In this document: positions 13,903 through 28,782 of the stretch, piece after piece
Layout of the letters: every line of letters begins with the position of its first letter
How positions within the stretch are numbered: position 1 is the stretch's first letter
Source: Labilithrix sp.
GTDB taxonomy: Bacteria; Myxococcota_A; Polyangia; Polyangiales; Polyangiaceae
Assembly: GCA_028287065.1 (NCBI GenBank)
Contig: JAQBQJ010000189.1
Span: forward strand, 1-49,975
Length of the DNA stretch: 49,975 bases
Direction: 5' to 3'
Program-made: the position numbers and the translations under genes
The notes under the pieces: model-generated
Told to the model about the DNA's origin: nothing
Seen by the model: the letters and a program-made list of their open reading frames with translations, nothing else
The model's database searches: none

Positions 13903-15084
13903 GTGCCGTGCTTGGGGGGCGTGGCTCCGAGCGCCGGACACTTCGACGACGCCGCGACGACGACGCGCGCGCCGTCGCGCAGCGCGTTTCGCATCGAGCG
14001 CGAGCGGGACGTAATTCGCCTCACGGGCGATCTGCGCCTCGCGCACGCCGCCCCGCTGTGGCGTCAGCTCTGCGCGGCGACACGCGACGTGAGCGGTGCG
14101 ATCGCGTTCGATCTTTCGCAAGCCGATGCGATCGACGGGTCGACGATCTCGCTGCTGATGGACCTCCGCGCCGAGCTCGTCGCACGAGGCGTGCACGCGG
14201 AGATCACCGCGGCTCCCGAGGCGTTCCGGCCCCTCCTCCGCATCTACACCGCGCATCCGCCGCCGCCGCGCGACGGGCGCAGCGCGCGCAGGCATCCGAT
14301 CGAGCACCTCCGCGATCTGGCGAGAGGCGCGCGCGCGGAGATCACGAATGCCCTCGATTTCCTGGGCAACATGGGGGTGGCGCTCGCCGCGATCGTGCGT
14401 GACCCGCGGCTCGGATACTGGAAGAGCGTCCCGTCGCACGCGGAGCACGCGGGCGCCGATGCGCTGCCGATCGTGCTCCTCATCAACGCGCTCGTGGGCT
14501 TCGCGATGGCCTTCCAGTCCGCGAAGCAGCTCCAGCTCTACGGCGCCAACCTGTACGTCGCCGATCTCGTGGGCATCTCGATGACCCGCGAGCTCGCTCC
14601 GCTGATGACCGCGATCGTCATCTGCGGCCGCTCCGGCGCGGGCTACGCGGCCGAGATCGGGACGATGAAGATCAACGAGGAGATCGACGCGCTGCAAACG
14701 CTCGGTCTGCGGCCGTACAACTGGCTCGTCGTTCCGCGCGGCGTCGCGATGCTGTTCGTCTTGCCGGTGCTCACGGTCATGGCGGACTTCGTGGGCGTGT
14801 TCGGCGGGATGATCGTCGCGGTCACCGACCTCGACATCACGCCGGTCGGCTACCTCATCGAGACTCAGCTCTCCGTGCGCCCGTGGGATGTCGCGACCGG
14901 GCTGATCAAGAGCGTCGTCTTCTCCGTCGCGATCGTCGGGATCGCTTGCCAGCAAGGCTTTGCGACGTCGGGCGGAGCGGAGAGCGTGGGCCGCCGCACC
15001 ACGTCGACGGTCGTCACCTCGCTGTTCGTCCTCGTGTTCCTCGACTCCGTCCTCACCGTCATCTTCCGGATCTTCCACGTGTGA
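13903..15084 (+). CDS. mlaE: MlaE-type lipid ABC transporter permease with N-terminal STAS domain
   Basis: A 393-residue inner-membrane permease of the Mla phospholipid transporter. Residues about 25-125 form a STAS domain ([20 protein letters not shown], then [22 protein letters not shown]). In Mla systems of enteric bacteria this is a separate subunit, MlaB, so here the two are fused, as in many Deltaproteobacteria. The remainder is the MlaE permease with five or six helices, including the conserved [15 protein letters not shown] cytoplasmic loop that meets the ATPase. It opens a three-gene unit with the ATPase and the MCE protein. GTG at 13903 is the likely start; the N-terminus is not certain. 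Confidence 0.88.
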
Positions 15085-16892: not shown

Positions 16893-19223
16893 ATGCACAG
16901 TGCACACAATACGCCCGAGCGCGCTCGCTGCGCCGTCCGCGTCCGCGGCACCGTGCAGGGCGTCGGGTTCCGCCCGATGGTGCATCGCATCGCGCAACGC
17001 GACGGCCTTGCCGGGTTCGTTCGCAACGACTCCGAGGGCGTCTTCATCGAGGTCGAGGGCGACGACGCGCAGGTGCTCGAGCGCTTCGTCGCGGCGCTCC
17101 GGAGCGAGGCGCCGCCGCTCTCGCGGATCGACGCCATCGAGGTGTCGACGCTGGCGCCGAAGGGAGAACGCGAGTTCCGGGTCGTCGCGAGCACGCCCGC
17201 GCCGATGACGCGCGCCGCCGTGCCGGCCGACGCCGCGACGTGCGATGCGTGCTTGCGCGAGCTCTTCGACGAACGCAATCGCCGGCATCGTTACCCGTTC
17301 CTCAACTGTACGGACTGCGGGCCCCGCTACACGATCATCCGCAGCGTGCCGTACGACCGGGCGGCGACGACGATGGACGTCTTCGCCATGTGCGCCGCCT
17401 GCCGTGCCGAATACGAGGACCCTCGGGACCGTCGCTTCCATGCGGAGGCGAACGCGTGCCCCGCATGCGGCCCGCACGTCGTGCTGCTCGAAGGGGATCC
17501 TCACGTGCAGGTCGCCGCGAAGGACGCCGCGATCGCGCGTGCCGTCGAGCTGCTCGCGCGCGGGCGGATCGTTGCGCTGAAGGGCCTCGGCGGTTACCAG
17601 CTCGCCGTCGACGCGCGCAACGAGCGCGCCGTCTCGAGGTTGCGGCGAAGGAAGATGCGACCGGACAAGGCGCTCGCGCTGATGGCGCGAGATCTCGACG
17701 AGGTCGCGAGCGTCGCGCAGCTCACCCCCGAGAGCATCGCAGCGCTCGTGTCTCCGGCGCGGCCGATCGTGCTGCTCGCGCGCGCCGAGCAGCCAGCGTC
17801 CGATCGCGAGCCGCTGGCTCCGGGCGTGGCTCCGTGGATGCGCGAGCTCGGGGTGATGCTCCCATCGACGCCGCTCCATCACCTGCTCTTCGCGGAGGGG
17901 CCGACGCTACTGGTCATGACGAGCGGCAACATCGCCGGCGAGCCGATCGTGAAGGACGACGACGACGCGGTAACGAAGCTGGGCAACGTCGCCGACGCGT
18001 TGCTCGTCCATGATCGCCTCGTCCACACGCGCTGCGACGACTCGGTGGTCCGCGTCATGGACGGCGCTGCTCGACCGCTCCGGCGGGCGCGCGGTCTCGC
18101 TCCCGCGCCGGTGCAGCTCGCGTTCGATGCGCCGCCCGTCCTCGCCGTCGGGGCCGAGCTGAAGAACGCGATCTGCTTCACGCGGGGAAGCGAGGCCTTC
18201 CTCTCGCAGCACATCGGCGATCTCGCTTCGATCGACGGACGCGCGTTCTTCGAGGAGCTCATAGGCGAGCTCGGGCGCCTGCTCGGCGTGGTTCCCGAGG
18301 TCGTCGCGCACGATCTCCACCCCGACTACGCCTCGACGCGATGGGCGCTCGCGAGCGGGCTGCGCACCGTCGCGGTGCAGCATCATCACGCCCACATCGC
18401 CTCGTGCCTCGCGGAGCACCGCCACGCCGGACCCGCGATTGGAATCGCGTTCGACGGGACGGGATGCGGCCCCGCCGGCGATCTCTGGGGCGGCGAGGTG
18501 CTCCTCGCGAGCCTCGCGTCGTTCGAGCGGCTCGGTCACCTCCGTCCGATTGCGCTCGCAGGCGGCGAGGCCGCGATCCGCGAGCCCTGGAGGCTCGCCG
18601 TTGCGGCGCTCCTCGACGCCGAGGAGGCGATCGATCTCGTGGGCGAGCTCCGCGCGCACACCATCGCGCGGCTCGTGTCCCGAGGAGTCGCCGCGCCGCG
18701 CGCGACGGGCGCGGGACGCTGGTTCGACGCGTTCGCGGCTCTGCTCGGGGTGCGCGATCGCGTCAGCTACGAGGCCCAAGCGGTGATGGAGCTCGAGGCC
18801 CTCGCCTGCGATGCAGACGTCGCGCCGTATCCATTCGCCATCGAGGAGCGCGCCGGCGCGCCGTTCGTGGTCGATCTGCGACCCACCGTGCGCGCCGTGG
18901 CCTCGGGCGTGCGCCACGGCGAGCCGCGCGACGAGGCCGCCATGCGCGTGTACGTCACGATGGCGGAGGTCGTGCGCGATGCATGTCGCATCGTCCGGCG
19001 AGACCGGCACGTCGACGTGGTCGCGCTCTCGGGCGGATGCTTCCAGAGCGCGCGGCTCACCGAACGCGCGAAGGCGCTGCTCGATGCCGACGGCTTCGAG
19101 GTCCTCATCCACCGCGAGGTGCCGGCGAACGACGGCGGCATCGCGCTCGGGCAGGCGGCGATCGCGGCTCACACGCCGCGCACGAAGGGAGACGTCGATC
19201 ATGTGCCTCGGCATACCCGGTGA
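16893..19223 (+). CDS. hypF: HypF carbamoyltransferase for [NiFe]-hydrogenase cyanide ligands
   Basis: A 776-residue maturase that uses carbamoyl phosphate and ATP to load a carbamoyl group onto the C-terminal Cys of HypE, the source of the active-site cyanides. Domains in order: acylphosphatase (about 10-95, motif VRGTVQGVGFRP), a double zinc finger (about 114-190; CDAC, CTDC, CAAC, CPAC), a YrdC-like domain (about 200-390) and a Kae1-like carbamoyltransferase domain with VQHHHAHIASCL and GIAFDGTGCGPAGDLWGGE. The end, NDGGIALGQA, is the usual HypF terminus. ATG at 16893 is chosen because the acylphosphatase domain follows within ten residues; an upstream in-frame start at 16809 is possible. 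It opens hypFCDE and overlaps hypC by 23 bases. Confidence 0.93.
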   Translation: MHSAHNTPERARCAVRVRGTVQGVGFRPMVHRIAQRDGLAGFVRNDSEGVFIEVEGDDAQVLERFVAALRSEAPPLSRIDAIEVSTLAPKGEREFRVVASTPAPMTRAAVPADAATCDACLRELFDERNRRHRYPFLNCTDCGPRYTIIRSVPYDRAATTMDVFAMCAACRAEYEDPRDRRFHAEANACPACGPHVVLLEGDPHVQVAAKDAAIARAVELLARGRIVALKGLGGYQLAVDARNERAVSRLRRRKMRPDKALALMARDLDEVASVAQLTPESIAALVSPARPIVLLARAEQPASDREPLAPGVAPWMRELGVMLPSTPLHHLLFAEGPTLLVMTSGNIAGEPIVKDDDDAVTKLGNVADALLVHDRLVHTRCDDSVVRVMDGAARPLRRARGLAPAPVQLAFDAPPVLAVGAELKNAICFTRGSEAFLSQHIGDLASIDGRAFFEELIGELGRLLGVVPEVVAHDLHPDYASTRWALASGLRTVAVQHHHAHIASCLAEHRHAGPAIGIAFDGTGCGPAGDLWGGEVLLASLASFERLGHLRPIALAGGEAAIREPWRLAVAALLDAEEAIDLVGELRAHTIARLVSRGVAAPRATGAGRWFDAFAALLGVRDRVSYEAQAVMELEALACDADVAPYPFAIEERAGAPFVVDLRPTVRAVASGVRHGEPRDEAAMRVYVTMAEVVRDACRIVRRDRHVDVVALSGGCFQSARLTERAKALLDADGFEVLIHREVPANDGGIALGQAAIAAHTPRTKGDVDHVPRHTR

Positions 19224-19443
19224 GGTGATGGAGGTCCGCGAGGAGGACGGCGTCCGATTCGGCAAGGTGCGCTTCGGCGGCGTCGCGCGAGACGTGTGTC
19301 TCGAGTGCGTGCCCGACGTCGCGGTCGGGGAATTCGTGCTCGTTCACGTCGGCTTTGCGCTCTCGCGCATCGACGCGGCCGAGGCGGCACGGACCTATGC
19401 TGTGCTCCTCGAGCTCGCGGGCGCGGACGAGGGGCTGTCGTGA
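19201..19443 (+). CDS. hypC: HypC/HybG hydrogenase assembly chaperone
   Basis: An 80-residue chaperone that carries the Fe(CN)2CO unit to the hydrogenase large subunit with HypD. It begins MCLGIPG, so the essential Cys2 that binds iron is exposed once the initiator Met is removed. The rest has the small beta-barrel pattern of HypC ([36 protein letters not shown]). The start lies inside hypF and is preceded by AAGGGAG. Its stop overlaps the hypD GTG start (GTGA). Confidence 0.93.
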
Positions 19444-20582
19444 AGTACCTCGACGAGTACCGGAGCGGTGACGTCGCGAGGCGCATCGCGGCCGCGATCG
19501 CGCGCACGGTGAAGCGCCGGTGGGTCCTCATGGAGGTCTGCGGGGGACAGACGCACTCGATCGTTCGCTACGGCATCGATCGAATGCTTCCGGAGGCCGT
19601 CGAGCTCGTGCACGGGCCCGGATGTCCCGTGTGCGTGACCCCGCTCGAGATGATCGATCGCGCGCACGCCATCGCCTCACGGAGTGACGTCGTCTTCACG
19701 TCGTTCGGGGACATGCTGCGCGTCCCTGGCTCGAACGGCGATCTGCTCGCGCTCCGGAGCGGCGGCGCCGACATCCGCGTCGTGTACTCGCCGCTCGACG
19801 CGCTCGAGATCGCGCGCAGGAACCCGGGCAAGAAGGTCGTGTTCTTCGGCATCGGCTTCGAGACGACGGCGCCGGCGAACGCGATGGCGGTCCACCTCGC
19901 GAAGCGCGAGGGCGTCGCGAACTTCTCGATGCTCGTGTCGCACGTGCTCGTTCCGCCGGCGATCGCCTCGATCCTGGATGCCAAGGGCAATCGCGTGCAG
20001 GCGTTCCTCGGGCCCGGTCACGTGTGCACCGTGATGGGGCTCAGCGAGTACGAGGCGCTGGTGAGCCGGTATCGCGTGCCGATCGTCGTGACCGGCTTCG
20101 AGCCGGTCGATCTCCTCGAGGGCGTGCTGCTCACCGTGCGCCAGCTCGAAGAGGGCCGCGCCAGCGTCGAGAACCAGTACGCGCGAACCGTGTCGCGCGC
20201 GGGAAATCCAGCGGCACGCGAGCTCGTGGCGAGGGTCTTCGAGGTCGTCGATCGCAAGTGGCGCGGCCTCGGCACGATACCGAGGTCCGGGTATCGGCTC
20301 GGCGCCGAGTATCGCGACCACGATGCCGAGCGGGTCTTCGAGGTCGATGCGCTCACCACCGACGAGTCGCCCCTGTGCATCAGCGGGCTCGTGTTGCGAG
20401 GTCTGAAGAAGCCCTCGGACTGCCCGGCGTTCGGAAAAGCGTGTACTCCGCAATCGCCGCTCGGCGCCACGATGGTGTCGGGCGAGGGCGCGTGCGCTGC
20501 GTACTTCCACTACGGTCGACATCCCGACGCGGTGCTCGACCCGGGGCCGAAGCCGACGCGGGGAGAGAGCGATGTCCTCTGA
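19440..20582 (+). CDS. hypD: HypD Fe(CN)2CO assembly scaffold
   Basis: A 380-residue iron-sulfur protein that, with HypC, is the platform on which the Fe(CN)2CO group of the hydrogenase is built. Conserved cysteines are visible at CGGQTHS (Cys34) and GPGCPVC (Cys62, Cys65). The C-terminal [4Fe-4S] region contains [19 protein letters not shown] and [13 protein letters not shown], the family signature. The GTG at 19440 overlaps the hypC stop and gives the standard N-terminus (KYLDEYR). It overlaps hypE by 11 bases. Confidence 0.93.
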
Positions 20583-21627
20583 GACGATGCCGTCGTTGCA
20601 GTGCGCGGTGCCGTTCGCCGAAAGCGGCAGCATCCTGCTCGGTCACGGAAGCGGCGGGAAGCTGACCGCGCGGCTCATCGAGGACACGATCGTCCCGGCG
20701 CTCTCGAACCCGCTCCTCGCGACGCTCGACGACCAGGTCTTCGTGCCGATCGGCTCCGAGCGCGTCGCGTTCACGACCGACTCGTTCGTGGTCACCCCGA
20801 TCTTCTTTCCCGGCGGAGACATCGGTGAGCTCGCGGTGAACGGTACAGTCAACGATCTGGCGATGGGCGGGGCCGTGCCGCGCTTCCTCTCGCTCGCGTT
20901 CATCCTCGAAGAGGGGCTGCCGATCGCCGAGCTCGAGCGCGTGCTCGCCTCCGTACGACGCGCCGCCGATCGCGCGGGAGTCGTCGTCGTCACCGGGGAT
21001 ACGAAGGTGGTGGGCCGAGGCAGCGGCGACAAGATCTTCGTGAACACCGCGGGCCTCGGGACTCCTCGCGCCGGCGTGTCCATGTCGGCGCGTCGCATTC
21101 GACCGGGCGATTCGATCCTGGTGTCCGGCACGCTGGGCGATCACGGCATGGCGATCCTCGCGTTGCGCGAGGGACTCGAGCTCGAGGGCGATCTCGTGAG
21201 CGATACCGCTCCGCTCCACGGGATCGTCGCGGCGATCCTCGATGCCTTCCCCGACGTGCATGCCATGCGTGACCCCACGCGCGGCGGCATCGCCGCGACG
21301 CTCGTGGAGATCGCGTCGCGACAGCGCGTGGGGATCGAGATCGAGGAACGGGCCATCCCCGTGAAGCATGCCGTGCGCGGCGCCTGCGAGATCTTCGGGC
21401 TCGACCCGATGTTCGTCGCCAACGAGGGGAAGCTCGTTGCGTTCGTCCCGCCCGAGGGCGAGGCCGCCGTGCTCCGCGCGATGCGCGCGCACCCGCTCGG
21501 ACGTGACGCGGCGTGCATCGGCCGCGTCACGTCGAGCCATGGCGGGACCACGCTCGTGCGGACGGCGATCGGCGGGCAGCGTGCCCTCGATCTGCCCTTC
21601 GCAGAGGCGCTTCCGAGGATCTGCTGA
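20572..21627 (+). CDS. hypE: HypE hydrogenase maturation protein (cyanide synthesis)
   Basis: A 351-residue ATP-dependent dehydratase of the PurM/AIR synthetase fold. HypF carbamoylates its C-terminal cysteine and HypE dehydrates the thiocarboxamide to a thiocyanate, donating CN to iron on HypCD. The N-terminal HGSGGK loop, the [10 protein letters not shown] nucleotide-binding segment, the MRDPTRGG motif and the terminal PRIC are all present, so the reactive Cys is in place as the last residue. A GGGAGAG ribosome-binding site precedes ATG at 20572. The gene converges with the DUF6893-like gene with one base between stops. Confidence 0.94.
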
Positions 21628-21807: not shown

Positions 21808-22278
21808 TCACTGTCCTACCTCGCTTTCGATGAGCCGGCGGATCATCGCGATCGCCGGCCCGACGGCCTCACGTACCGGAGCGCTGAGCTCCATCCCTTC
21901 GGTCATATCCTCGGGCTCGCACCCCACGATGCGCGTCCGCGGGAGCACGCCGCCCATCTGCTCCACGGCGCGCAGGACGGTGCGAGGATCCATCGCGTGC
22001 GCGTCGGGACCGCCGGCGGGCTCGTCGCCGACATCGCTCTCGGGATCGATCAGGTAGAGCGTCCCGGGCACGCCTCGTCGCGATACCGTGTCGACGAGCA
22101 CGAGCAGATCGGGCGGCGACATCAGCTCGAACGCGAGGTGGACGCCGCGGATCCCGTAGTCGACGACGCCGGTGTCGGCGGGCAGCGGCTCGCGTGCCAT
22201 GCGCTGCGCGACGGCGACACCGAAGCCGTCGTCGCCGAGGAACACGTTGCCGATGCCGGCGACCAGGACGCGCGGCAT
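21808..22278 (-). CDS. Hydrogenase maturation endopeptidase (HyaD/HybD/HupD family)
   Basis: A 156-residue nickel-dependent protease that trims the C-terminal peptide of the hydrogenase large subunit after the metal centre is complete. The family markers are present: the N-terminal strand RVLVAGIGNVFLGDDGFGV with the metal-binding Asp/Glu region, the second acidic site (VDYGIRG) and the LLVLVDTVSRRG strand. The likely substrate is HhyL, 5 kb away on the other strand, which still carries a C-terminal extension. The start at 22278 shares one base with the stop region of the upstream 433-residue gene. Confidence 0.9.
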   Translation of the reverse strand: MPRVLVAGIGNVFLGDDGFGVAVAQRMAREPLPADTGVVDYGIRGVHLAFELMSPPDLLVLVDTVSRRGVPGTLYLIDPESDVGDEPAGGPDAHAMDPRTVLRAVEQMGGVLPRTRIVGCEPEDMTEGMELSAPVREAVGPAIAMIRRLIESEVGQ

Positions 22279-23579
22279 CAGCGATCCTCCACATCGAGCA
22301 GCTCGACCTCTTCGGGGTAGTAGTAGTGGAAGCGGCCCTTCCAGCGATGCATCTCGGCGGCGGGGTCGTCGTCGATCGTCACGAGCACGTACTCGCGCCC
22401 GTCGACGTCGTGCCGAACCGACGCGATCGTGGCGACCCGCCCGGCATAGAGGAGGTCTTGCGCGTCCGTGCGGCGCGTCGTGCCGTCGAGACGGAGCCGC
22501 ACGCGCCGGCCGGGGGCGAGCTTCGAGACCGAGGGCGTCAGAGGCGGTGAAGCCACGGCACGTCGATCGCGCATGACCCCGTGCAGCCGTGCGAGCGCAT
22601 CGTTGTCGAGCGCATCGACACGATCCAGGATCGCGGCGCTGCGCGGATCGGTCGCGCGCGCGAGGACCTTCTCGTCGGGGGTGAGCGTGCGCGTACGCAG
22701 CGCGAGCATCGCGTCGATCTCCGTCGAGTCGAAGAAGTCCCCCGCGCTCTCGGGCGCGATCTGGGGATGGTCGTAGAGGATGATCGGCGAGCAGAGCATC
22801 ATGTCGGAGCGGCCGTCGTCGCCGACCAGCACGGGGTACGCGCCGACGCTCGTGCACGCACGCGCGGCGCGCTCGGCGTGCGCAGGAGGATCGAGGAGCG
22901 AGACGAAGCGCGCGGCCTCGCCAGAGGCCTGCAGACGATCGTCGAGCGCGAGCATGAGGTGCGCGGAGATGCACGAGACGTGCATGATCTCCGCGCGCTC
23001 GGCGCCGGCGCGGCTCGGCGTGACGTTCTCGACACGGATGACCACGCGATGGAGGCGCGCGTCCTCGTCGCGATCGGTCCGCACGCGGATCGTGCCTTCG
23101 ACGGCGGCGCGCGTGCGGACGATCCGGCCGAGCACTCCTCCGTGGCGATCGAGGAGCACCTCGTACCGCTCGTCGGCCGGCGCCTCGAACGGAACGACGC
23201 GCGCGCCGCGCGCCGGATCCACGTCGACCTCGAAGTCGATCTCCCGAAGGTCGCCCTCTTCCCACGGGACGAGGACGCGTCCGCCGGCGTCGAGCCGCTC
23301 GGTCGCGCGATAGCCGTCGTTGGTCGGGACGTCGATGCGCCTCACGATGACGTGCAGGAAGCGAAGCCGCCCTCGGAGCCTCGGCGCCTCTCCTTCGACG
23401 AGCACCTGCGCCTCGAGCCACCACGGCTCGCAGCCTCCCGCCGCGCTCCAGTCGCGCGGCGCGAGGACCCCGAAGGTCCATCGGTAGCGGTTCTTCGCGG
23501 AGCACGAGCGATAGGGGTAGAGGACGTACCCTTCGAGCAGCACCGCATCCGCGATCGAGCCTGCAGTTTCGAAGCTCAC
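22278..23579 (-). CDS. Conserved hydrogenase-cluster protein of unknown function (433 aa)
   Basis: A soluble 433-residue protein with no signal peptide. The N-terminal region reads DAVLLEGYVLYPYRSCSAKNRYRWTF, a block I recall from uncharacterised proteins next to group 1h hydrogenases in Actinobacteria. The middle is beta-rich with a His/Cys patch (IMHVSCISAHLML) and a CSPIILYDHPQIAPES loop. The last 80 residues look like an SH3-type barrel (RVRLRL, then YAGRVATIASVRHDVDGREYVLVTIDDDP, then GRFHYYYPEEVELL). GTG at 23579 overlaps the upstream stop (GTGA), tying it to the DUF5947, NifU-like and hypBA genes. A role in assembly or electron output is inference. Confidence 0.7.
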   Translation of the reverse strand: MSFETAGSIADAVLLEGYVLYPYRSCSAKNRYRWTFGVLAPRDWSAAGGCEPWWLEAQVLVEGEAPRLRGRLRFLHVIVRRIDVPTNDGYRATERLDAGGRVLVPWEEGDLREIDFEVDVDPARGARVVPFEAPADERYEVLLDRHGGVLGRIVRTRAAVEGTIRVRTDRDEDARLHRVVIRVENVTPSRAGAERAEIMHVSCISAHLMLALDDRLQASGEAARFVSLLDPPAHAERAARACTSVGAYPVLVGDDGRSDMMLCSPIILYDHPQIAPESAGDFFDSTEIDAMLALRTRTLTPDEKVLARATDPRSAAILDRVDALDNDALARLHGVMRDRRAVASPPLTPSVSKLAPGRRVRLRLDGTTRRTDAQDLLYAGRVATIASVRHDVDGREYVLVTIDDDPAAEMHRWKGRFHYYYPEEVELLDVEDR

Positions 23580-24190
23580 GGTGCTACCTCCGCGCGTTCG
23601 GCGAGGCGCGCGACGAACGCCTCGAGGGCTTCCCGGGCTTCGTTGCCGCCGTCGATCCCTCGCCAGCCCGTGCGGAGCAGCGCGGTGAGCTCGTAGCAGA
23701 CGTCGACGGGGACGACGAAGCACGCGCACCGGCCGTCGCGCGTGCGGCGCACCAGGAGCGCCTCGACGTCCTCCTCGATGCCGTGCACGAGCGCGGCGTC
23801 CCCCGCGAACGCGTCCCACGCGCCGTCGTCGAGCTCGGCCTCGGTCGGGCCCGCGGGGCTCGGGAACACGGCCATCCATCGACCGGTGCTCGACTGACGG
23901 ACGAAGAAGGCGAGGCCGACGGGAACGCCGAGCGCATGGAGCCGGGCATCGTCGAGCGTCCACGACGGATCGACGCGCACCCGATCGGGGACGGTACGGA
24001 AGCGGCCCTGCTTCTTCCCCGAGAACGCGAGCGTGCATGCGACGCACACGCAGAGCAGCTTCTGGAGCGTGCAGTCGACCACGTGACGGTGCTGTTCGGC
24101 GATGGCGAGAGCGCATAGCTCGCAGCGCGCGCCTGCGCGTGCGCGGCGCGCGCCTCTCGCATAGCGCTCGAGGGCGCGGAGGGATGTCAC
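23576..24190 (-). CDS. DUF5947 family protein, putative zinc-binding hydrogenase accessory
   Basis: A 204-residue cytosolic protein that matches my recollection of DUF5947, a family confined to group 1h hydrogenase loci. Near the N-terminus it has CELC followed about 22 residues later by CVCVAC, a likely zinc ribbon; the HVVD between them is typical. The rest is alpha/beta, with VGLAFFVRQSSTGRWMAVFPSPAGPTE and the DVEALLVRRT, then CYEL, then WRGIDGG blocks. GTG at 24190 overlaps the NifU-like stop (GTGA). Function is unknown; the position between the NifU-like gene and the maturation genes implies hydrogenase assembly. Confidence 0.72.
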   Translation of the reverse strand: MTSLRALERYARGARRARAGARCELCALAIAEQHRHVVDCTLQKLLCVCVACTLAFSGKKQGRFRTVPDRVRVDPSWTLDDARLHALGVPVGLAFFVRQSSTGRWMAVFPSPAGPTEAELDDGAWDAFAGDAALVHGIEEDVEALLVRRTRDGRCACFVVPVDVCYELTALLRTGWRGIDGGNEAREALEAFVARLAERAEVAP

Positions 24191-24702
24191 GGGCGCGCTC
24201 CGCGCGTGAGACGCTCGACCGGCACGATGGCATCGGCCGGAGCTTCCTCCTCGATCCGGATGCCGAGGACCTCCGGTGCGTCGCGCTCGATCTCGCGGGC
24301 GACGATCGTCGTCGGAGGCGGCCTCGCCGCCTTTGCCGTGCCGGGGGCGACCACGAGCTTCACGACGCCTGCCTCGAATCCCACGACGACGAGCGCAGCG
24401 GAGCCGGGCAGCTCCTCGCGCACCCGCTGGAGCGCCGCGTCGATGCGCCGCTCGAGCGGGAGCGGATGGAGGTCGTGGAGCAGCATCAGGCTCGACACGA
24501 GCTCGTCGCGCGCGAGCCGCTCGTCGAGGCTCCCACCCTCGCGCGCGCAGTCGCGTGCGCAGGCCAGCGTTCGCTCGAGCCCCTCGCCGTAGAGCGCGAC
24601 GAGCGCGGCGACGAGCGCCTCGACGCGCGGCCACGCGACGGGCCCCGTCACCGCCTGCGCCTCTTCGAGCAGGCGTTCGACGTCGTCGCCCGTGGTGGTC
24701 AT
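24187..24702 (-). CDS. NifU-like protein lacking the C-terminal cluster-binding cysteines
   Basis: A 171-residue protein placed between hypB and DUF5947. Residues about 1-85 are helical (VEALVAALVALYGEGLERTL, then ARDELVSSLMLLHDLHPLPLERRIDAALQRV). This is the leader region of NifU-family proteins from hydrogenase clusters, where a NifU C-terminal domain normally follows with a GXCXXC motif. Here the corresponding part (SAALVVVGFEAGVVKLVVAPGT) keeps the strand pattern but has no CXXC, so it cannot hold an Fe-S cluster in the usual way. The remaining tail is acidic. ATG at 24702 overlaps the hypB stop (ATGA). Confidence 0.65.
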   Translation of the reverse strand: MTTTGDDVERLLEEAQAVTGPVAWPRVEALVAALVALYGEGLERTLACARDCAREGGSLDERLARDELVSSLMLLHDLHPLPLERRIDAALQRVREELPGSAALVVVGFEAGVVKLVVAPGTAKAARPPPTTIVAREIERDAPEVLGIRIEEEAPADAIVPVERLTRGARP

Positions 24703-25478
24703 GGCGACGCGATTCCGGCGGCGCGCCGCGAAGGCCACACGCGTGCGGCCTCGGCGCGCAGCCATCCGCAGACCTCGTCGACGCCCTCTCCGCGGAGCGC
24801 GGTGAGCCGGATCACCTCGATTTCGGGGTTCACCTCGCGCGCGAACGCGACGCAGCGATCGGCATCGAAGGGCACGTGAGGCAGGAGGTCGGTCTTGGTC
24901 AGCACCATCAGGCGCGACGCGCGGAACACGTGCGGATACTTGATCGGCTTGTCCTCGCCCTCGGTCACGGACATCACGACGATCTTCGCGAGCTCGCCGA
25001 GATCGAAGAGCGCAGGACAGACCAGGTTCCCGACGTTCTCGACGAACACGATGCTCGAGCGCGGCGGGGCGAGCGCGCGCACGCCGGCCTCGATCATCGC
25101 CGCGTCGAGGTGGCATCCCGCACCCGTGTTGATCTGGCGGACGCGGCAGCCGGCGCCCTCGATGCGCTGCGCGTCGCGGTCGGTCGCCTGGTCGCCTTCG
25201 AGGACCGCGAGCGGCACGTGCGTGCGGACGCGGCGGATGATCGACTCGAGGAGGGCGGTTTTTCCGGCTCCGGGCGAGCCGATCAGGTTGAAGACCGCGA
25301 TCCCCCGCGCGGCGAAGGAGTGCCGATTGACGGCCGCGAGTCGCTCGTTCTTCGCGAGGAGATCGCGCTCGATCCTCAGCGTCCGCACCGCGGGGACTTG
25401 ATCGTGGTGGTGATCGTCATGGTCACGGTGGTGGTGGTCATGGACGTCGTCGGTCTCGCAGCCGCATGTGGTGCACAT
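24699..25478 (-). CDS. hypB: HypB nickel-inserting GTPase
   Basis: A 259-residue GTPase that delivers nickel to the hydrogenase large subunit with HypA. The N-terminus starts MCTTCGCE, the high-affinity nickel motif CXXCGC, followed by a His/Asp-rich stretch (about residues 13-26) that can store nickel. The P-loop is GSPGAGKT (67-74). The metal-site block INTGAGCHLD, the ENVGNLVCP switch and the TKTD guanine-specificity motif are all present. The ATG directly follows the hypA stop (TGAATG), and the gene ends in an ATGA overlap with the NifU-like gene. Confidence 0.94.
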   Translation of the reverse strand: MCTTCGCETDDVHDHHHRDHDDHHHDQVPAVRTLRIERDLLAKNERLAAVNRHSFAARGIAVFNLIGSPGAGKTALLESIIRRVRTHVPLAVLEGDQATDRDAQRIEGAGCRVRQINTGAGCHLDAAMIEAGVRALAPPRSSIVFVENVGNLVCPALFDLGELAKIVVMSVTEGEDKPIKYPHVFRASRLMVLTKTDLLPHVPFDADRCVAFAREVNPEIEVIRLTALRGEGVDEVCGWLRAEAARVWPSRRAAGIASP

Positions 25479-25712
25479 TCACGTCACCTCGACTTCCTTG
25501 AGTCGCAGCTCCGCGCCGCGCGTCTCGACGATGTCGAGCGTCGCGCCTTCCAGAGCCGTGCCATGGACGCAGACCTCGAAGCTGAATCGGAGCGCGTCGG
25601 GAGACGCGCATGCCTGCCGCCCGACCTCGAGCCGCACGACGTGCACGCGCGCCTCGCCGACCTCGCCGGCGACGGTCGAGACGAGGTCCTCCATCAACGC
25701 GAGCTCGTGCAC
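25479..25712 (-). CDS. hypA: HypA-type nickel metallochaperone lacking the zinc-binding domain
   Basis: A 77-residue short HypA. The N-terminus (V/M)HELALMEDLV carries the nickel-binding His2-Glu3 pair, and the strand EVGRQACASPDALRFSFEVCVHGTALEGATLDI matches the nickel-binding domain. Normal HypA proteins of about 110-115 residues then have a zinc finger with two CXXC pairs before a final strand. Here TLDIVET runs straight into GAELRLKEVEV, which corresponds to that final strand, so about 30-35 residues including all four zinc cysteines are absent with the frame kept. GTG at 25712 is supported by a GGAGGTG ribosome-binding site and the MHE start. It is the first gene of the minus-strand operon. 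Confidence 0.8.
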   Translation of the reverse strand: MHELALMEDLVSTVAGEVGEARVHVVRLEVGRQACASPDALRFSFEVCVHGTALEGATLDIVETRGAELRLKEVEVT

Positions 25713-25928
25713 GGCGCACCTCCGCGCTGCACGCCTCTCAAGAACCACGCCGGCAAAGGTCGCGCGGCGCTCCTCGACCTACGTGACGCTTTGTCGTCCC
25801 GGAACGCCACGCCGCGAGACGAGGTGCATCCCCAACCGCGCGCAGCTCGATGTCAGCGCAGTGGCGCTCGAACGCGTGGCGAGGCGGTTCGCGAGCCGGG
25901 GCATGTTCGGCGCATGCCGGCAGGCACG
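25713..25928. promoter_or_regulatory. Divergent control region between hypA and hhyS
   Basis: These 216 bases must contain promoters for both the maturation operon (leftward) and the structural hydrogenase operon (rightward). A clear GGAGGTG ribosome-binding site for hypA lies at about 25717-25723 on the minus strand. I looked for sigma-70 and sigma-54 elements and found none convincing; TGGCGAGGCGGTTCG near 25880 resembles a -24/-12 promoter but its GC is one base out of place. Confidence 0.4.
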
Positions 25929-26960
25929 ATGGCGACCACCACACGCATCGAGGAGATCCACGTCCTCTGGATCTCCGAGGGGATGAGCTGCGACGGCGAC
26001 ACCGTGTCCATGACCGCCGCGACGCAGCCGAGCATCGAGGACATCGTCCTGGGGCTCATTCCCGGCATCCCGAAGGTCCATCTGCACAACAAGGTGCTCG
26101 CGTACGAGAACGGAGAGGAGTTCGTCGCCGCATTCCGTCAGGCCGCACGCGGCGAGCTGGGGCCGTTCATCCTCGTCGTCGAGGGCTCGATCCCGAACGA
26201 GAACATCAACGGCGACGGCTACTGGACGTCGTTCGGCAACGACGAGAACGGCGAGCCGATCACGCTCAACACGTGGCTCGACGCGCTCGCGCCGCAGGCC
26301 TGGGCGGTCGTCGCCGCGGGCACGTGCGCGACGTACGGCGGCATCCATGCGATGGCCGGAAATCCCACCGGCTGCATGGGGCTCGCAGACTACCTGGGCT
26401 GGAATTTCCGCTCGCAGGCGGGCCTGCCGATCGTCAACGTGCCGGGCTGTCCGATCCAGCCCGACAACTTCATGGAGACGCTCCTGTGGGTGCTGCGCGA
26501 GGCGGCCGGCAACGCTCCGATGATCCCGCTCGACGAGCAGCTCCGGCCTACGTGGCTGTTCGGCAAGACCGTGCACGAGGGCTGCGATCGCGGCGGGTAC
26601 TACGAGCAGGCGGACTTCGGGCGCGATTACAACTCGCCCAAGTGCCAGGTGAAGATCGGCTGCTGGGGGCCGGTCGTGAACTGCAACGTGCCGAAGCGCG
26701 GCTGGATGAAGGGCATCGGGGGATGCCCGAACGTGGGCGGTATCTGCATCGCGTGCACGATGCCCGGCTTCCCCGACAAGTTCATGCCGTTCATGGACCA
26801 ACCTCCCGGCTCGACGCTCTCGGCGACGCTGCTCTCGCCGTACGGACGGATGATCCGCAGGCTTCGCAGCATCACGAATCACACCGCGAACAAGGAACCG
26901 AAGTGGCATCACAACGGGCCCGAGCTCACGAGCGGCTACGACCTCGGTTGGCGTGGTTGA
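25929..26960 (+). CDS. hhyS: Group 1h [NiFe]-hydrogenase small subunit
   Basis: The 343-residue electron-transfer subunit, carrying three Fe-S clusters that lead electrons away from the active site. Near the N-terminus, GMSCDGDT has Cys21 and an Asp at residue 24, where standard hydrogenases have a second Cys. The oxygen-insensitive actinobacterial-type enzyme of Ralstonia eutropha is known to bind its proximal cluster with three Cys and one Asp. GTCATYGG (Cys133), NVPGCPIQP, and the C-terminal CDRGGYY, CWGPVVNCN and GGCPNVGGICIACTMPGFPDKFMPF blocks supply the other ligands. There is no Tat signal peptide, so the enzyme should stay in the cytoplasm. ATG at 25914 is an alternative start. Confidence 0.92.
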   Translation: MATTTRIEEIHVLWISEGMSCDGDTVSMTAATQPSIEDIVLGLIPGIPKVHLHNKVLAYENGEEFVAAFRQAARGELGPFILVVEGSIPNENINGDGYWTSFGNDENGEPITLNTWLDALAPQAWAVVAAGTCATYGGIHAMAGNPTGCMGLADYLGWNFRSQAGLPIVNVPGCPIQPDNFMETLLWVLREAAGNAPMIPLDEQLRPTWLFGKTVHEGCDRGGYYEQADFGRDYNSPKCQVKIGCWGPVVNCNVPKRGWMKGIGGCPNVGGICIACTMPGFPDKFMPFMDQPPGSTLSATLLSPYGRMIRRLRSITNHTANKEPKWHHNGPELTSGYDLGWRG

Positions 26961-26991
26961 CGAGGACACTCGGAACAGAGGAGCACGCACG

Positions 26992-28782
26992 ATGACCGTC
27001 ACGTCGGTACCCACGCCTCAGCGCCGGCTCGTGGAGATGTCGTGGGATCCGATCACCCGGATCATCGGCAATCTCGGTATCTATACGAAGATCGACTTCG
27101 ACAATCGCGAGGTCGTGGAGTGCAAGAGCACCTCGTCGATCTTCCGTGGTTACAGCGTATTCATGCGCGGGAAGGATCCGCGCGACTCGCATTTCATCAC
27201 GAGCCGTATCTGCGGGATCTGCGGCGACAATCACGCCACCTGCTCGATCTACGCGCAGAACATGGCCTACGGAATCAAGACGCCGCCGGTCGGAGAGTGG
27301 ATATTCAATCTCGGCGAAGCCGCCGAATACATGTTCGACCACTCCATCTTCCAGGACACGATGGTGTTCGTCGATTACTGCGAGCAGATGGTGAAGGAGA
27401 CGAATCCGAAGCTCCTCGAGCTCGCGGAGCGCACGCCGGCGCCGAGCTCGAATATCCACGGATATCGAACGATCGCGGACATCATGCGTTCCTTCAATCC
27501 ATTTACCGGAGAGACCTATCGCACGGCGCTCGAGATGAGCCGCCTCACGCGAGAGATGTTCTGTCTCATGGAAGGGCGGCACGTCCACCCGTCGACGCTG
27601 TATCCCGGCGGCACCGGCACCGTCGCGAGCCCTCAGGTGTTCAGCGATTACCAGGTCCGCCTCATCCGGTTCATCGACTTCGCGAAGAAGCTCGTGCCGC
27701 TCAACGACGACGTCTTCGATTTCTTCTACGAGGCGATGCCCGGCTACGAGCACGTCGGCGAGCGCCGCGTGCTGCTCGGGTGCTGGGGAGCGTTCCAGAA
27801 TCCCGACGTCTGCGACTATCGCTACGAGACGATGGCCGACTGGGGGAGGGCGATGTTCGTCACGCCGGGCATCGTCGTCGACGGCGCGCTCATCACGACC
27901 GATCTCGTCGAGATCAACCTCGGGATACGGATCCTGCTCGGCAACTCGTTCTACGAGGACTGGGTGGACGGCGCGTCGTTCGTACCGAAGGATCCGCTGG
28001 GAAATGCGGTCGATCCTCGCCATCCCTGGAACCAGACGACCATCCCGAAGCCGCGCAAGCGCGATCTCGAGAAGGGCCCGTACAGCTGGGTCATGAGCCC
28101 GCGCTGGTACCACGCGAAGACGAAGGAGCACCTCGCGCTCGATACCGGCGGAGGTCCGCTCGCGCGCCTGTGGGTCACCGCGCTCGCGAACCTGGTGAAG
28201 ACGCCGTACGTGCAGGCGACCGGCTCGAGCGTGCGCATCCAGCTGCCCAAGTCCGCCTCGTCGGGTGAGGTCGCGCTCGAGTGGAAGGTGCCGCGGTGGT
28301 CGAACACGCTCGAGCGCGGCCGCGCGCGCGCGTACTTCATTGCCTATGCGGCGGCGATGGCCATGTTCTTCCTCGAGAAGGCCATGGAGCGCGTCCACAA
28401 GGGAGACGTCCGCACCTTCCAGGAGTTCGAGGTCCCGGACGACGCGATCGGCTGCGGTTTCCACGAGGCGGTGCGCGGCGTGCTCTCGCATCACCTCGTG
28501 ATCCGTAATGGCAAGATCGCCAATTATCATCCGTATCCGCCGACCCCCTGGAATGCGAGCCCGCGCGACGTCTACGGCACGCCTGGGCCGTACGAGGACG
28601 CGGTGCAGGGCTTACGGATCTTCGAGGAGAACGGGCCGGACAAGTTCAAGGGCATCGACATCATGCGCACGGTGCGCAGCTTCGATCCGTGCTTGCCGTG
28701 TGGCGTGCACATGTATCTCGGCAACGGGCGCGTGCTCGAGGAGCGTCATGCGCCGATGTTCGGAACGCCGCGCTCGGCGTGA
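26992..28782 (+). CDS. hhyL: Group 1h [NiFe]-hydrogenase large (catalytic) subunit
   Basis: The 596-residue catalytic subunit that splits H2 at a NiFe(CN)2CO site. The nickel ligands are in the L1 motif RICGICGDNH (Cys74, Cys77) and the L2 motif DPCLPCGVH (Cys567, Cys570, His573). The surrounding sequence (WDPITRIIGNLGIYTKIDF, then STSSIFRGYSVFMRGKDPRD) is characteristic of group 1h, whose members scavenge H2 at atmospheric concentration in air. A 23-residue tail after His573 should be removed by the maturation protease at 21808. ATG at 26992 is preceded by GAGGAG; the open frame extends 39 bases further, overlapping hhyS. Confidence 0.94.
   Translation: MTVTSVPTPQRRLVEMSWDPITRIIGNLGIYTKIDFDNREVVECKSTSSIFRGYSVFMRGKDPRDSHFITSRICGICGDNHATCSIYAQNMAYGIKTPPVGEWIFNLGEAAEYMFDHSIFQDTMVFVDYCEQMVKETNPKLLELAERTPAPSSNIHGYRTIADIMRSFNPFTGETYRTALEMSRLTREMFCLMEGRHVHPSTLYPGGTGTVASPQVFSDYQVRLIRFIDFAKKLVPLNDDVFDFFYEAMPGYEHVGERRVLLGCWGAFQNPDVCDYRYETMADWGRAMFVTPGIVVDGALITTDLVEINLGIRILLGNSFYEDWVDGASFVPKDPLGNAVDPRHPWNQTTIPKPRKRDLEKGPYSWVMSPRWYHAKTKEHLALDTGGGPLARLWVTALANLVKTPYVQATGSSVRIQLPKSASSGEVALEWKVPRWSNTLERGRARAYFIAYAAAMAMFFLEKAMERVHKGDVRTFQEFEVPDDAIGCGFHEAVRGVLSHHLVIRNGKIANYHPYPPTPWNASPRDVYGTPGPYEDAVQGLRIFEENGPDKFKGIDIMRTVRSFDPCLPCGVHMYLGNGRVLEERHAPMFGTPRSA

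Follow-up and report, generated by a model that had tools for sequence, protein, structure and literature searches.

A HypA nickel chaperone without its zinc domain in a Labilithrix hydrogenase cluster and in hydrogenase-free sister species

Canonical HypA/HybF proteins (PF01155, TIGR00100; PDB 3a43, 5aun, 5yxy and 6g81) share with the protein described here an MHE motif, the nickel-domain fold and a gene position adjoining hypB; they also have a zinc domain, ~34 residues that are absent from this protein. In two reviews HypA is presented as having two domains, with regulation or sensing and interaction ascribed to the zinc site (PMC7055735, PMC12134894). According to the first, all four zinc cysteines matter for the hydrogenase and urease of H. 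pylori; cysteine mutants lost activity partly or mostly, and several retained 36-60% of the hydrogenase activity. A high-affinity, nanomolar nickel site in the T. kodakarensis HypAB complex is completed by His98 of HypA (PMC7055735). HypA and HypB without a [NiFe]-hydrogenase have a precedent in the isr (isoprene reductase) operon of Acetobacterium wieringae (PMC10134865). We found no description of a natural zinc-less HypA in the open-licence PMC literature, subscription papers being outside the scope of that search.

The DNA analysed, referred to here as the window, is a stretch of 49,975 nucleotides from Labilithrix sp. (contig JAQBQJ010000189.1). It contains a [NiFe]-hydrogenase, which from its gene content we take to be of group 1h, together with all the Hyp genes (Table 1). 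The TGA stop of hypA abuts the ATG of hypB, which adjoins it. Locus L162, in genome G049, has the same gene set as the window, but HypA there is 109 aa long and keeps its cysteines.

Table 1. Coordinates of the hydrogenase and hyp genes in the window.
Feature	Coordinates	Strand	Remarks
HypF	16893..19223	+	named from sequence
HypC	19201..19443	+	named from sequence
HypD	19440..20582	+	match to HypD family PF01924
HypE	20572..21627	+	
Hydrogenase maturation protease (HycI family)	21808..22278	-	
Conserved cluster protein, 421 aa	22278..23543	-	L160 and L162 have relatives at this position; no Pfam match
DUF5947 protein	23576..24190	-	
Conserved cluster protein, encoded between the hypB and DUF5947 genes	24187..24705	-	presumably NifU-like; no Pfam match
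HypB GTPase, 259 aa	24699..25478	-	TIGR00073, 257 bits, above cut-off; N-terminal CTTCGC and His-rich stretch
Zinc-less HypA, 77 aa	25479..25712	-	GTG start; MHE motif, nickel-binding domain only
[NiFe]-hydrogenase small subunit	25929..26960	+	divergent from hypA; start read from sequence
[NiFe]-hydrogenase large subunit, 596 aa	26992..28782	+	match to PF00374

Translation of hypA begins at a GTG (position 25712) with GGAGG upstream, and the product reads M(V)HELALMEDLVSTVAGEVGEARVHVVRLEVGRQACASPDALRFSFEVCVHGTALEGATLDIVETRGAELRLKEVEVT. The N-terminus of the protein is (fM)HELALMEDLV. LDIVE is joined straight to the C-terminal end, TRGAELRLKEVEVT, the CXXC...CXXC zinc domain being cleanly missing; residues 35 and 48 are the only cysteines and the CXXC count is 0. 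In an alignment that included 19 HypAs of named genomes, a gap of ~34 columns, spanning both cysteine pairs, fell between LDIVE and TRGAEL, after which the conserved terminal G-x-E-L strand picks up in frame. The translation and the alignment bear out the first-pass annotation, which had described a HypA running from the nickel domain to the final strand with both CXXC pairs missing and the frame kept, and the observation that this gene encodes a HypA without the zinc domain is confirmed. The protein scored above the gathering score of PF01155 (53.3 bits against 28.9; residues 1-65 on profile positions 1-68 of 112) and below the cut-off of the NCBIfam equivalog TIGR00100 (49.3 bits against 88.1). 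Searching for a zinc domain nearby by tblastn, with five zinc domains against positions 24001-27500, yielded nothing beyond short matches attributable to chance (best E 0.03), and no C..C...C motif was found in any of the six frames of 25001-26200, which disposes of the possibility, raised at first, that the zinc cysteines lie here in another frame. Because the zinc site, the textbook defining feature, was tested and found absent, we class the protein as a HypA-derived, zinc-less variant, set apart from full HypA.

AlphaFold modelled the window HypA with a pLDDT of 94.2 from the window protein and 19 homologues, a model that is not independent of the family because its input alignment includes full-length HypAs. 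The modelled secondary structure comprises helix 2-18, strand 23-31, helix 38-49, strand 58-64 and strand 69-76. A Foldseek search against the PDB returned 11 chains at E ≤ 0.001, all of them HypA; the best was 5yxy_F, from HypA complexed with the large subunit HyhL (TM 0.86, query-normalised), and this match covers 119 columns, with the deleted zinc domain inside the span. In the model, the window HypA is a complete nickel-binding domain as in solved HypA structures; the nickel domain would be left whole because the zinc domain is an insertion between the last two strands.

A 77-residue homologue broken at the same point is present in two other species of the genus (genomes G003 and G004). 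The G003 and G004 proteins are 62-66% identical to the window HypA and 79% identical to each other, with no indels or stops, and in all three species hypA has a GTG-His-Glu start and is directly followed by hypB. We reject a deletion introduced by assembly or sequencing, which the 577-contig draft state of the window's genome (G000) might have suggested: the assemblies of G003 and G004 show the identical boundary, there on different contigs and in different genomic surroundings. Its presence in two further species rules out an artefact of assembly, and we give this explanation practically no weight.

A second alternative is that the window hypA is decaying or non-functional and that hydrogenase maturation relies on another HypA or on high nickel. 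The search for a second full-length hypA proposed in the first-pass annotation found none in the window's genome, with a single PF01155 match; this result holds for a genome that is 72% complete, and the missing 28% could hold a second HypA. High nickel can bypass HypAB (PMC12134894), and the hypB of G004 has lost its N-terminal cysteine motif. Against decay, the gene has kept an equal length in three species at 62-79% identity without indels or stops, and the near-complete genomes G003 (98% complete, ~50 contigs) and G004 (96% complete) contain no other HypA. We regard decay as very improbable.

To place the variant, we aligned the three zinc-less proteins and used them as the query against 183 genomes of the order. 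Full-length matches (1-77) were confined to the window, G003 and G004, and 36 further genomes gave matches ending at 59-71 of the 77 positions; among the HypAs translated, which came from part of these 36 genomes, all keep the zinc cysteines except that of G067, a short zinc-less protein of another type. Likewise, among 39 relatives matched by the window protein, the translated HypA frames keep the zinc cysteines except in L038 and L040, which encode the same protein with a degenerate first cysteine pair (CRTYG). In many HypAs of this cluster type (L015, L010, L012, L033, L213-L216), C..C...CxC replaces the two CXXC pairs. From these sequences, zinc sites seem relaxed in this branch.

G003 and G004 differ from the window in having no hydrogenase, a setting that the first-pass annotation had missed, as it had the separate zinc-less lineages in many other operons. 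Neither genome matched the large-subunit (PF00374) or HypD (PF01924) family, and both lack HypE because their AIRS_C matches are assigned to PurL (two) and taken as PurM (one). HypB is present in both. The zinc-less hypA-hypB pair sits between the divergent purL and purQ genes (L071 7461-8474 and L072 6842-7833), and contamination is unlikely since the flanks are syntenic purine genes. The purL-purQ spacers of G000 and G010 contain no hypAB; therefore, the pair probably moved into this spacer. As in the A. wieringae isr operon, HypA and HypB here occur without a [NiFe]-hydrogenase; unlike G003 and G004, both HypAs of that operon keep two CXXC motifs (PMC10134865).

The relocated pair carries a signature of purifying selection. 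Substitutions between G003 and G004 numbered 9/8/24 by codon position in hypA (p=0.0028) and 49/41/94 in hypB (p=1.7e-6), in a chi-square test that ignores base composition. NG86 dN/dS values for the same comparison were 0.25 for hypA and 0.33 for hypB, with 0.18 for purQ and 0.13 for purL. Between G000 and G004 the codon-position signal of hypA was weak (p = 0.17; NG86 omega 0.54). Should loss of the hydrogenase predate the split of G003 and G004, the constraint would have operated in its absence. It is conceivable, and we put it forward tentatively, that the zinc-less HypA and HypB form a nickel delivery module in their own right, independent of hydrogenase, that moved into the purL-purQ spacer and stays under selection; urease would be the obvious candidate client in these genomes, which have no UreE.

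A further alternative would have the zinc-less HypA-HypB pair leave hydrogenase maturation altogether, serving another nickel client or buffering nickel, and being a mere neighbour of the hydrogenase in the window. It draws on the retention of the relocated pair in G003 and G004 in the absence of the large subunit, HypD and HypE, on the third-position-biased substitutions and NG86 omega values given above, and on the isoprene reductase precedent (PMC10134865). It also draws on urease: G003 and G004 both have ureD, a fused ureAB, C, F and G in one cluster (named from sequence), and UreE is found nowhere. On the other side, the window has its hydrogenase and all the Hyp genes in place. Because G007, G009 and G011 have urease and lack both HypA and HypB, urease does not need the pair, and its role as an obligate client of the G003/G004 pair was not supported. 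Nor was loss of UreE as the reason for keeping HypAB, UreE_C having no match in any of the 12 genomes of the genus. LarA-like genes and Ni-SOD were rejected as clients; since the former occur in all 12 genomes and the latter in one (G005), no client tracks the pair. We judge this alternative unlikely.

In a HypB tree of 71 rows, from which the zinc-less HypA types without HypB are absent, the window, G003 and G004 formed one clade (SH-aLRT 99) among HypBs of hydrogenase clusters with zinc-bearing HypA. The zinc-less label required 5 parsimony changes on this tree, 2 of them forced by well-supported branches. Loss of the zinc domain is therefore a repeated event, and one such loss probably preceded the divergence of at least the three species of the genus represented by the window, G003 and G004. 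The first-pass annotation had given the zinc site a part in docking on HypB or the large subunit, which is not supported as stated. In PMC7055735, it is the N-terminal tail of the large subunit that contacts the nickel site of HypA, and the role of the domain-swapped HypA dimer is called unknown; PMC3287977 traces HypA binding by HypB to two hydrophobic residues of the latter, Leu78 and Val80 in E. coli HypB, which are needed to bind HypA. In an alignment with E. coli HypB, the corresponding positions are hydrophobic in the HypBs of the window, G003 and G004 (TLRI, TVHI and TVRL). These docking residues and the G-domain metal ligands of the window HypB look conserved. The G004 HypB (L071 7695-8474) starts MCTTRGP, having lost the N-terminal CXXCGC motif and kept the G-domain metal residues. 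In G016, the HypB region (L163 ~14156-14977) was called in pieces, yet a stop-free match exists, and the fragmentation is probably a gene-calling flaw.

Across the phylum, PF01155 matched 120 of 377 genomes, and in 30 of the 120 the match ended at profile position 64-70, marking a zinc-less HypA (the window's genome, G067 and 28 others). All 28 others encode a short HypA with no CXXC after residue 55 (80-93 aa in 27 cases, 123 aa in the other), and G046 and G068 are two more genomes with a short zinc-less HypA beyond the 30. A group-3b-like large subunit was matched in 24 of the 28 stretches, 21 of them at 45% identity or more; the best NCBIfam matches of the large-subunit queries were sulfhydrogenase alpha subunits, below cut-off. 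Of the 28 stretches, 15 showed a HypB, and the others include contig ends. The HypAs of these group-3b-like operons (L177-L204) are single nickel domains without CXXC, as in the window, but they belong to other lineages and lie beside another hydrogenase type, and several of the loci have no HypB. The operons of G046, G067 and G068 (L074, L167 and L075) are also group-3b-like, with a short HypA and HypCDE, and with HypF in L167 and L075; HypB had no match at E ≤ 1e-10 in these three genomes. G308, assembled as one contig, has a single HypA, which is zinc-less.

The plasmid collection held two 80-aa zinc-less HypAs of alphaproteobacterial hosts, both named HypA in RefSeq. On the Sphingopyxis alaskensis F plasmid (WP_011536540.1), hypA is directly followed by hypB, as in the window, whereas on pAB510b of Azospirillum sp. 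B510 (WP_012976956.1) it stands alone beside fdhF/hyf genes. Four further plasmid matches (H4, H5, H6 and H8) span the query to residue 76-77, as judged by alignment extent. Five short HypAs scanned against TIGR00100 scored 17-49 bits against the cut-off of 88, and the NCBI equivalog cut-off for HypA thus misses the zinc-less type. Zinc-less HypA is not rare, and in the phylum sample it is found mostly in group-3b-like operons. The reverse case was also observed: in L207-L211 (G416, G301, G270, G344 and G234), HypA-like proteins keep C..C...C..C and have no MHE start in the frames read, their start positions being provisional, and there is no hyp or hydrogenase match within ~8 kb.

Taking these observations together, we consider it probable that the window gene encodes a working single-domain HypA, and that the zinc domain is optional and has been lost several times across HypA lineages. 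Counted in favour are the gene set shared with L162, the zinc-less HypAs beside intact hydrogenase operons and the only HypA of G308; counted against are the importance of the zinc cysteines in H. pylori, the part of His98 in the T. kodakarensis nickel site, the 72% completeness of the genome, in which a second HypA may be missing, the weak G000-G004 signal and the loss of CXXCGC in G004. In such a protein, nickel would be bound by the N-terminal amine, His2 and Glu3, as the MHE motif suggests, would be taken from the adjacent HypB and would be passed to the large subunit encoded next door. The alpha-beta-alpha-beta-beta nickel domain is complete in the model and the alignment, the deleted segment corresponding to exactly the zinc domain between the last two strands. 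The zinc domain would then be a dispensable accessory that may serve pH or metal sensing, dimer swapping or a higher nickel affinity. His98 of T. kodakarensis HypA lies, we presume, in the zinc-domain region; because the window HypA has no counterpart of it, a zinc-less HypA is predicted to have to complete the site otherwise or to bind nickel more weakly.

Since natural zinc-less HypAs exist, some of them the only HypA found in their genome, the zinc domain appears dispensable for nickel delivery. The original proposal, of a minimal HypA that handles nickel only, whose hydrogenase/hyp cluster is otherwise intact and in which the loss is tolerated, is supported, and we hold this reading to be likely. 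Similar versions occur in sister species and in many other bacteria, which makes the loss look real and tolerated, not an error, and extends the phenomenon beyond one operon. At 77-80 residues, the zinc-less HypAs offer a minimal chaperone for structural work.
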